NCBI GenBank assembly: GCA_001802945.1
Contig: MHAK01000012.1
Location: forward strand, 1-39,332
Source: Ignavibacteria bacterium RIFCSPLOWO2_12_FULL_56_21
GTDB lineage: Bacteria > Bacteroidota > Ignavibacteria > UBA10030
Direction of reading: 5' to 3'
Length of the DNA: 39,332 bases
A model generated the notes under the pieces. It did no database searches and was not told where the DNA came from. It was given only the letters and a program-made list of their open reading frames with translations. The translations under genes and the position numbers were made by a program. Below are positions 1,893 through 3,983 of the stretch, piece after piece. How positions within the stretch are numbered: the first letter of the stretch is position 1; each line of letters starts with the position of its first letter.

Positions 1893-1925
1893 CCCCTCCT
1901 TCCCAAGGAGGGGGCAGGGGAGGTG
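1893..1925 (-). repeat. Left inverted palindromic end of the DUF559 element
   Basis: CCCCTCCTT (1893-1901), a CCC loop, then AAGGAGGGG (1905-1913) form a perfect 9-bp stem. Read on the minus strand from 1925, the unit begins CACCTCCCCTGCCCCCTCC, matching the right-hand unit at 2348 except for one extra T there. The two units therefore face outward on either side of the DUF559 gene. Confidence 0.8.
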
Positions 1926-1928
1926 GAT

Positions 1929-2312
1929 CTACGCGGACGGAGGTTTCCCCTTCAACCGCAGTACCTCCGAGCGAACCTTTTCTATGGCCGAATGGATATC
2001 GTACCTGACCACTTCGTCCCGTATTCGAAGGACAGTAATGTCGTGCTGCTCGATCTCTTGTTGACGTCTTGCGTCCCTCATGTGGGCTTCCTCTGAGTCG
2101 TGGCTTGCACCGTCAACTTCAATTACAAGGGAAAGTTCAGGGCAGTAGAAGTCGACGACATACCTCCCAATCCCGTGTTGTCTGCGAAACTTGCATCCCT
2201 CTATTTGACGTCGCTTGAGAAACTGCCACAGGATTTTCTCGGCTCCGGTGGCCCGCTTGCGCAGTGTTTTGCGAAGATTCTTCAGCTGCTTGCGGTTGAA
2301 ATACAGGCCCAT
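1929..2312 (-). CDS. DUF559-family endonuclease-like protein
   Basis: A 127-residue protein of the DUF559 family, related in fold to very-short-patch-repair (Vsr) and other PD-(D/E)xK nucleases. The signature is visible: a basic N-terminal part, AEKILWQFLKRRQ, KFRRQHGIGRYVVDFYCPE, then LVIEVDGASHD. The Asp of VVDFY and the Glu and Asp of IEVDG are the expected metal-binding residues, and a later TVLRIRDEVV completes the core. I prefer the ATG at 2310-2312, which has GGGGGA just upstream; an in-frame ATG at 2322-2324 would add four residues. The stop codon lies only a few bases from the left palindrome. The gene sits alone, opposite in direction to the cargo gene, and is framed by inverted palindromic units. 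Nuclease activity is inferred from family; the biological role of DUF559 proteins is poorly known. They may be selfish or repair-linked genes. Confidence 0.85.
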   Translation of the reverse strand: MGLYFNRKQLKNLRKTLRKRATGAEKILWQFLKRRQIEGCKFRRQHGIGRYVVDFYCPELSLVIEVDGASHDSEEAHMRDARRQQEIEQHDITVLRIRDEVVRYDIHSAIEKVRSEVLRLKGKPPSA

Positions 2313-2321
2313 GGTTCCCCC

Positions 2322-2810
2322 CATGTAAAGCTTGTAGATCTACGTCACACCTCCCCTTGCCCCCTCCTCCAGCGAATGTCTAATGAAGAGGAGGGGAAGT
2401 CGCGGGCTGGTGTACAACTGCATCGGGCTGCTGAATGAAGTCTCCTAAACTGAAATCTCGCCACTGAGCTCAAATTAGAGACCCATGATTCCTCCACATG
2501 TAAAGCTTGTAGATCTACGTCACACCTCCCCTTGCCCCCTCCTCCAGCGAATGTCCAATAGAAGAGGAGGGGAAGTCGCGGGCTGGTGTACAGCTGCATC
2601 AGGCTGCTGAATGAAGTCTCCTAAACTGAAATCTTGCCTCTGAGCTCGAATTAGAGACCCATGATTCCTCCACATGCAAAGCTTGTAGATCTACGTCACA
2701 CCTCCCCCTGCCCGCTCCTCCTGCGAATATCAAAAGATGAGGAGGGGAGATTGTAGGCCCAGGAACAGCTGAGTCGGGCTGCTCAATGAGATCTACTCAG
2801 CGCAATTTCG
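2322..2810 (+). repeat. About 175-bp tandem repeat: three copies of the element right end
   Basis: Units start at 2322, 2497 and 2673 (CATGTAAAGCTTGTAGATCT or nearly so). The periods are 175 and 176 bases, and the third copy decays after about 2800. Each has the 10-bp palindrome GTAGATCTAC, then CACCTCCCC, then a CCCCTCCTC...GAGGAGGGG hairpin: stems 2361-2369/2388-2396, 2536-2544/2564-2572, and a weaker one 2715-2720/2739-2744. The ends of copies 1 and 2 (about 2470-2496 and 2646-2672) resemble the start-codon region of the DUF559 gene, so the duplicated unit appears to comprise that gene's 5' leader. Confidence 0.8.
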
Positions 2811-2885
2811 CAACTACGGTTGAATCTCGGAGAATTCGCAATCCGTTCCGCCGAGCGCATAGCTTCTGCAATGACATTGGCGAAG

Positions 2886-3983
2886 TTACTTCTGCACCCT
2901 CACCAGATTTACCACAGCTGCCGCTAGAAAGATCAGGTTCGCCAGCCACGCCGTCAGGAGCGGATTCAGGTCGCCGTTGTACCCGAATACCTGGCTGATC
3001 TTCATGAACGCCAGATAAATGAACGTCACCGCCACGGCGATGCCGAAGCCGAGGGCTGTTCCCGTACGGGGACGGCTGGTCGCGAACGGGACGCCGAACA
3101 GGACCATAATGACGCTCGCGAACGGAAATGCCAGCTTTGCATGGTAATCCACCAGCCAGCGGGACACATCCTGCCCCGCGGCGACCTGACCCGCTATGAA
3201 TTCTCTTAATTCTCCGTACTGCATCTCATCCGGTTTTCGCTGTTTCTTCTCGATGTCGTCCGGCACGAGCGACAGTTTTCCCACATACATCCTCTGATAC
3301 TGAATGACCGGGTTCGTCAGGTCCACAGTTCCCCGGTGCGTGCCGTTTACGAGCACCCAACCCTCCGCGAGCGAATCCGATGCCGCCTGCCACTGCATCT
3401 GGAACGCGTCGAACCGGTGATACAACACGGTCAGGTTGGTGTCGGCGAAGTCGAGAATGCTCACACGGCTGGCCGTCCGAGTCTGCGTATCGAAGTAGTT
3501 CATGGACACGACGCGCGTTTGTCCCACCTGGAAGAAGATGTTGAACTTGCTCCCGACGTCCCCTCCTTTGCGCAGATATGTCCGTTCGATGTAGAACTTC
3601 TTCTGGTTGGAGGAGGGAACGACCCAGCCGTTCAGCCAGATCGAGACCCCTGCAACGACCGTCGCGACGGCGAGAAACGGGAACAACAGTCGATACAGGC
3701 TGATGCCGCTGGACTTCATGGCCGCCAATTCGTTCTGCGACGCGAGCCGCCCTGTGACGAACAGCGCGGCCAGCAGCATCGCCACGGGGGTCATGAGCTT
3801 CAGGATCTCCGGCGCGAACACGACGTAATACTCCAGAATGATATTGACCGGCACGCCGGCATCGAGGAAGTCGTCGATCTTCTCCGTCAGGTCGATGACG
3901 AGGAAGATGCAGAGAAAGCTGAGCAATCCGAAGAACGCGGCGACGATGTATTGGCGGATGATGTAGCGGTCTAGGAGAGACAT
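2886..3983 (-). CDS. lptG: LptF/LptG-family LPS-export permease (LptG-like)
   Basis: A 365-residue YjgP/YjgQ-family membrane protein. By family it is one of the two transmembrane subunits of the LptBFG ABC transporter, which extracts lipopolysaccharide from the inner membrane toward the LptA/C bridge. The typical plan is visible: three N-terminal membrane segments starting LLDRYIIRQYIVAAFFGLLS, the family motif NELAAMKSSGISLYRL after segment two (about residues 84-100), a large polar periplasmic beta domain (about 130-270), and three C-terminal membrane segments from KLAFPFASVIMVLFGVPFA onward. It lies 61 bases downstream of a second family member on the same strand, as lptF and lptG often do. 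Assignment to G rather than F rests on order and smaller size only. Confidence 0.85.
   Translation of the reverse strand: MSLLDRYIIRQYIVAAFFGLLSFLCIFLVIDLTEKIDDFLDAGVPVNIILEYYVVFAPEILKLMTPVAMLLAALFVTGRLASQNELAAMKSSGISLYRLLFPFLAVATVVAGVSIWLNGWVVPSSNQKKFYIERTYLRKGGDVGSKFNIFFQVGQTRVVSMNYFDTQTRTASRVSILDFADTNLTVLYHRFDAFQMQWQAASDSLAEGWVLVNGTHRGTVDLTNPVIQYQRMYVGKLSLVPDDIEKKQRKPDEMQYGELREFIAGQVAAGQDVSRWLVDYHAKLAFPFASVIMVLFGVPFATSRPRTGTALGFGIAVAVTFIYLAFMKISQVFGYNGDLNPLLTAWLANLIFLAAAVVNLVRVQK

Follow-up and report, generated by a model that had tools for sequence, protein, structure and literature searches.

The 39,332-nucleotide stretch analyzed here (hereafter, the window), from the Ignavibacteria bacterium RIFCSPLOWO2_12_FULL_56_21 (contig MHAK01000012.1), contains a small gene for a DUF559 nuclease flanked by inverted copies of a triplex motif (TM), which we define as a hairpin, consisting of a C/T arm, a loop and a G/A arm, followed by a short linker and a tail in mirror symmetry with the purine arm. 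Judging from their sequence, these ends appear to be intrastrand-triplex motifs of the box C/PIT/TM type, not plain palindromes. Because the pairing of DUF559 genes with such motifs recurs in many phyla and includes box C of Escherichia coli, DUF559 is probably the missing partner of the box C/TM repeat family, and we somewhat favor the interpretation that the locus is a minimal element in a widespread system resembling that of the repetitive extragenic palindromes (REPs) and the REP-associated tyrosine transposases (RAYTs), in which DUF559 would be the dedicated nuclease of the TM repeats. What is new is the connection between the DUF559 nuclease and the box C/TM repeat, both known before yet unexplained. 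The locus comprises the following features:

1893..1925, plus strand: left TM, with a CCCCTCCTT-CCC-AAGGAGGGG hairpin, linker GCA and mirror tail GGGGAGGTG toward the gene
1929..2312 (alternative start 2324), minus strand: DUF559 nuclease gene (PF04480, E=7.8e-29; alignment; model)
2348..2396, minus strand: right TM, with a 9-bp stem, 18-nt loop, linker GCAA and mirror tail GGGGAGGTG toward the gene
2319..2797, no strand assigned: three ~176-bp tandem repeats, each with a copy of the gene 5' leader and a TM (repeat families D1 and D2)
2523..2572, minus strand: second copy of the right TM, within a tandem repeat (repeat search and sequence)
2699..2747, minus strand: third copy of the right TM, decayed (from the sequence; missed by the strict motif scan)

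The open reading frame extends over 1929-2324 on the minus strand, with homologues favoring the ATG at 2312, and its stop codon lies 3 bp from the left TM. As a first-pass annotation of the sequence had described, the gene is bracketed by inverted end copies (inner arms 1906-1925 and 2348-2367) associated with 9-bp G/C-rich palindromes (the left CCCCTCCTT-CCC-AAGGAGGGG hairpin, 1893-1913, and the stem-loop portion of the right TM, 2361-2396), one of which nearly abuts the gene stop. Absent from that annotation were the combination of hairpin, linker and mirror tail at each end and the repetition of the right TM inside the 176-bp tandem repeats, in which the portion of the 5' leader is about 35 bp. 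Both ends share the same code, a CCCCTCCTT-N3-AAGGAGGGG hairpin, a 3-4-nt linker and a tail mirroring the purine arm, with a longer loop on the right (18-19 nt in the right-hand TMs), and both tails are directed toward the DUF559 gene; the complete arrangement, capable of forming a class II purine triplex, was found at 1893-1925, 2348-2396 and 2523-2572. Shuffling 6 kb of window sequence 40 times produced no TM unit, which, together with the 50-fold local enrichment at DUF559 genes described below, rules out a chance origin of the TMs. Beside the left end, at 1585-1832, there are two tandem 124-bp repeats (93% identical) that contain no TM.

The code of the ends was analyzed in a sample of 183 C/T-first hairpins around 92 small DUF559 loci, with both ends of each hairpin read (366 ends). 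In this sample, the sequence next to the hairpin forms a mirror image of the purine arm: the tail base opposite G is G at 601 of 610 positions, and that opposite A is T (145) or A (99), together 244 of 262. The linker is 3 nt long at 92 of the 366 ends, with every other length from 0 to 7 found at 16 ends or fewer each, and when tails were exchanged between loci, the mirror was kept in just 12%. The covariation is that of a purine-motif intrastrand triplex, with the pairing rules kept while the sequence itself changes. The E. coli motif has been shown to fold into a triplex in vitro by circular dichroism and nuclear magnetic resonance, and this motif, known as box C, PIT or TMECO, has the consensus CCCTCNCCC-N3-6-GGGNGAGGG-N3-GGGNGAGGG (PMC4666352).

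The association of these motifs with DUF559 was assessed at loci picked by protein similarity alone; DUF559 domains in long open frames (>=1000 aa) were excluded from the repeat statistics. The phylum holds many domains in such frames (L005, L006, L007, L012, L018 and others), which are probably fusions. C/T-first hairpins have a density of 2.75/kb up to 250 bp from 77 small DUF559 genes vs 0.054/kb beyond 1 kb, a 50-fold enrichment, and no purine-first palindromes were seen around these genes. A full TM lies no more than 400 bp from the gene at 50 of the 77 small DUF559 loci and at 39 of 58 loci in the window's own phylum, strongly bearing out the expectation that the end motif would recur near other DUF559 genes. 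In contrast, full TM units were found near none of 30 genes for Vsr (PF03852), the best-known relative, in the same phylum. The hosts of TM-DUF559 loci include Patescibacteria, Planctomycetota, Ignavibacteria, Bacteroidota, Acidobacteriota, Gammaproteobacteria and others, and across these loci the arrangement is that of REP-RAYT systems, with an enzyme gene flanked by inverted palindromes that are also dispersed; the window itself displays just the flanking half, with inverted palindromes beside the gene and no dispersed copies. No published link between DUF559 and palindromes or triplex repeats was found among the open-access papers searched. In Neisseria gonorrhoeae (L143, ~2780-3900), the DUF559 gene lies between two longer repeats in the same orientation that contain a triplex-like motif, and on Picosynechococcus plasmids (L141, L142), DUF559 adjoins DUF499 and DUF1156 genes in a defence-like setting with different palindromes (CCCCCAATATTGGGGG).

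The link extends to whole genomes. The pattern CCYYYCC-N3-9-GGRRRGG was counted against a reversed control in 296 genomes of the window's phylum, yielding 3166 vs 330 occurrences in DUF559-positive genomes and 1276 vs 765 in genomes without a strong DUF559 match. The excess in DUF559-positive genomes is highly significant (Mann-Whitney p=3e-18), correlates with the DUF559 number (Spearman 0.54) and is sustained under permutation within families (16 families, p=5e-5). C/T-first palindromes are also abundant in G086, G001, G006, G058, G125 and G162, which have no strong DUF559 match; those of G162 are uniform (CCCCTCC-NNN-GGAGGGG), and this genome may have another partner or may have lost the gene. 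Furthermore, the arm sequence tracks the relationship of the proteins (Mantel r=0.17, p=5e-4, n=89). Among non-syntenic pairs with at least 60% protein identity, the arms are identical in 86% (22 pairs, with similar-flank pairs removed), and the share declines to 33, 22, 16, 9 and 8% in successively lower identity bins (8-16% under 45% identity); at a 58% identity cut, the match between arm and protein gives a Fisher p of 2.6e-15 for pairs that are not independent. Three DUF559 lineages coexist in a single genome, G163, and their arms differ from one another, each arm being common to the same lineage in sister genomes.

Beyond co-occurrence, there are traces of movement. G078, from the same family as the window's genome, has a ~490-bp TM-DUF559-TM segment at two sites, with copies 86% identical and flanks unrelated, and the same segment is found in G312, G313 and G314, from the genus of G078, with flanks that are mostly unrelated (those of G312 and G313 are partly common; other sites differ). 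Loci L090, L097 and L107 represent these three genomes again, with identical coordinates, and add no further genomes. Given the two copies in G078 and those in sister species with unrelated flanks, the unit has therefore moved; like insertion sequences and miniature inverted-repeat transposable elements, it is a sharply bounded multicopy unit with inverted ends. Target-site duplication was not apparent at the junctions compared, few of which are clean. Solo TMs have been gained or lost at syntenic sites as well, being present in one and absent from the other of two Scalindua genomes and of two metagenome-assembled genomes of Planctomycetota. In Marinomonas and Acinetobacter, multiple inverted TM pairs of ~106-130 bp lie near the gene and at other places. 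The stretch upstream of ilvD in Acinetobacter (L151-L180) is a hypervariable hot spot that often opens with DUF559 and continues with variable genes and additional TM pairs; this hypervariability led us to drop the site as a clean empty-site comparison. Association, coevolution, co-occurrence and a bounded multicopy unit thus all speak for the REP/RAYT-like pairing of DUF559 with palindromes that the first-pass annotation had proposed; one part that needs amending is the nature of the ends, which look like triplex motifs and not simple hairpins.

In E. coli K-12, ycjD, which is annotated as DUF559, is located between sapF and fabI, the latter formerly named envM, and TMECO no. 9 (1,351,204-1,351,239) matches the sequence of the TM between ycjD and fabI. 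Alignment over the sapF-fabI region as a whole fails for about 2000 of 5375 E. coli genomes, and the three of these that were inspected carry an efflux operon in place of ycjD; an efflux operon in this region, eefRABCD, has been described (PMC12817139). PMC4666352 cites the envM sequence paper as the first report of box C. The repeat, denoted box C, PIT or TM, is documented from E. coli plus more than 260 genomes, its loci show more rearrangement across E. coli strains, and the authors found no mobility gene beside it (PMC4666352). At ypfG-tkt (L150, L332-L336), strain KE48 carries a TM, and K-12 and others carry a classical REP; this is an allelic TM/REP exchange, and a simple TM insertion was rejected for this site because the alternative strains carry the REP there.

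The protein encoded in the window is a single domain of ~130 aa, with no additional DNA-binding domain, and belongs to PF04480 (DUF559; E=7.8e-29, 100.2 bits against a cut-off of 20.6). The catalytic-type invariant residues E29, D58, E69, D71, H75 and D84 (numbered from the 2324 start) are intact in the alignment, and the enzyme is therefore predicted to be an active metal-dependent nuclease. The structure closest to the AlphaFold model (pLDDT 87.7) is 3hrl, the N. gonorrhoeae protein NGO0050 of the DUF559/YcjD family, followed by the catalytic domain of the EDxHD homing endonuclease I-Bth0305I (PDB 3r3p; Foldseek probability 1.00, E 1e-3), to which the window protein is also linked by profile search (E=1.8e-5); weaker matches include PvuRts1I and Vsr (1vsr, rank 10). 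The modeled fold is accordingly of the Vsr/EDxHD homing-endonuclease type, PD-(D/E)XK-like. No DUF559 protein with a biochemically proven substrate was found in the accessible literature; the pairing described above suggests that folded TM DNA may be cut or nicked by these proteins.

A mechanism can be envisaged along these lines. During replication or repair, TM DNA would become single-stranded, the two arms, C/T and G/A, would pair with each other, and the mirror tail would fold back as a third strand. The DUF559 protein would recognize the triplex fold and nick or cut there, whereupon repair or recombination would copy TMs into new intergenic sites, mostly as inverted pairs or tandem arrays, with the gene occasionally copied along between TMs; the window element may have such a function at present. 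More tentatively, DUF559 and its TMs could constitute a separate, bacteria-wide class of mobile elements, independent of REP/RAYT, in which a PD-(D/E)XK nuclease, with no HUH or DDE transposase, recognizes and spreads triplex ends. Box C of E. coli would then be either a relic or an active population served by YcjD.

Several observations weigh against the interpretation of DUF559 as the dedicated nuclease of mobile TMs. About a third of the DUF559 loci are without any TM unit, and 13 genomes are rich in the pattern though they have no strong DUF559 match. The polarity of the tails varies, with both directed toward the gene at 26 loci, both away at 8 and mixed at 12. Several DUF559 loci are syntenic across species, which argues against frequent movement of the gene, and the comparison of occupied and empty sites suggested at first pass found no clean empty site of the DUF559 gene, with the search based on the ~490-bp (g3) element yielding just one flank. 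VsrA of Caulobacter, a DUF559 protein, is tied to cytosine methylation, through a methyltransferase, and to the SOS response, not to repeats (PMC12907096). Finally, many other DUF559 genomes hold many dispersed TM copies, but in the window's genome (3.36 Mb, 138 contigs searched), which has one DUF559 gene, the TM is absent outside this locus, so that the anticipated solo copies of the ends failed to appear and the first-pass idea fared poorly on this point. Hairpins of TM type were not found beside lptG in relatives from the window's family, where synteny is broken to the extent that no insertion junction can be defined for the window element; the single-locus state and the hairpin-free lptG neighborhoods fit a lineage-specific arrival of the element.

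Relatedness of the catalytic domain to I-Bth0305I, the Acinetobacter ilvD hot spot with its DUF559 genes, variable genes and additional TM pairs, the presence of either ycjD or the eef operon at sapF-fabI, and the greater rearrangement of TM loci among E. coli strains (PMC4666352) would also be expected of a homing-type selfish gene. Its nuclease would cut TMs as targets in unoccupied DNA, and recombination between TMs would copy or swap the intervening DNA, including the gene, such that TMs would be targets and crossover points, not what spreads, and TM loci would become hot spots of gene exchange. However, homing alone does not explain the dispersed solo TMs and gene-free inverted pairs, and the window protein lacks the extra DNA-binding domain found in phage homing endonucleases; we consider this scenario rather unlikely. 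Distinctly unlikely, in our estimation, is a Vsr-like mismatch or repair nuclease with substrates that may include secondary structures, TMs being operators or tolerated substrates with no role in mobility. The Vsr-like fold and the ties of Caulobacter VsrA to the SOS response and a cytosine methyltransferase (PMC12907096) are compatible with such an enzyme, but TMs flank many genes on both sides, their genome-wide dispersal is proportional to the DUF559 number, the ~490-bp TM-gene-TM unit is mobile, and true Vsr genes have no TMs. The possibility that the C/T-rich palindromes represent terminators or generic repeats between genes and that DUF559 merely settles in the same variable regions, where many of its loci indeed lie, is already disfavored and very improbable, given the 50-fold hairpin enrichment at DUF559 and none at Vsr genes, the lineage-specific arms at non-syntenic loci, and the units on both sides of the gene, the last of which, along with the lack of promoter or terminator activity of PIT elements as cited in PMC4666352, rules out terminators.

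If DUF559 is indeed the nuclease of the TM repeats, box C-type repeats, known since 1992 without an explained origin, acquire a partner gene and, through it, a mechanism that can be tested, and the DUF559 family, whose function is unknown, gains a probable substrate. The pairing points to at least two origins of REP-like repeat/nuclease pairs, each with an enzyme unrelated to the other, and a nuclease naturally suited to triplex-forming DNA would be unusual and useful. E. coli K-12, with ycjD and 23 TMECO copies, offers a convenient laboratory test bed.

Among known systems, the closest counterpart of the ends is box C/PIT/TMECO (Bergler 1992; Hoyne and Maher 2000, 2002; Holder et al. 2015, PMC4666352), with the same succession of C/T arm, short loop, G/A arm, 3-nt linker and mirror tail, recurrent TTA and CCG linkers, and intergenic location, often in inverted pairs. 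In the present loci, however, the arms vary by lineage and follow the DUF559 gene, and the right-hand units of the window have the 18-19-nt loops. The window protein, which has the invariant residues, belongs to the family of NGO0050 (3hrl), Caulobacter VsrA and YcjD; it differs from Vsr endonuclease, the genes of which lack TMs, and shares a related catalytic domain with I-Bth0305I, which is intron-encoded and has extended DNA-binding parts (PMC3943268), whereas the DUF559 gene is free-standing, single-domain and bounded by inverted repeats. With REP/REPIN-RAYT (TnpA-REP) systems, the TM-DUF559 loci have in common a nuclease gene in a single or few copies flanked by inverted palindromes with an asymmetric tag, as well as dispersed intergenic copies, inverted pairs, arrays and a lineage-specific repeat sequence. 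The enzymes are unrelated in sequence, PD-(D/E)XK-type in DUF559 and Y1 HUH transposase in RAYT, and the tag is a mirror-repeat third strand in the former and GTAG in the latter. In the absence of a Y1 HUH transposase, the element is therefore not filed under REP-RAYT, although it would work like one.
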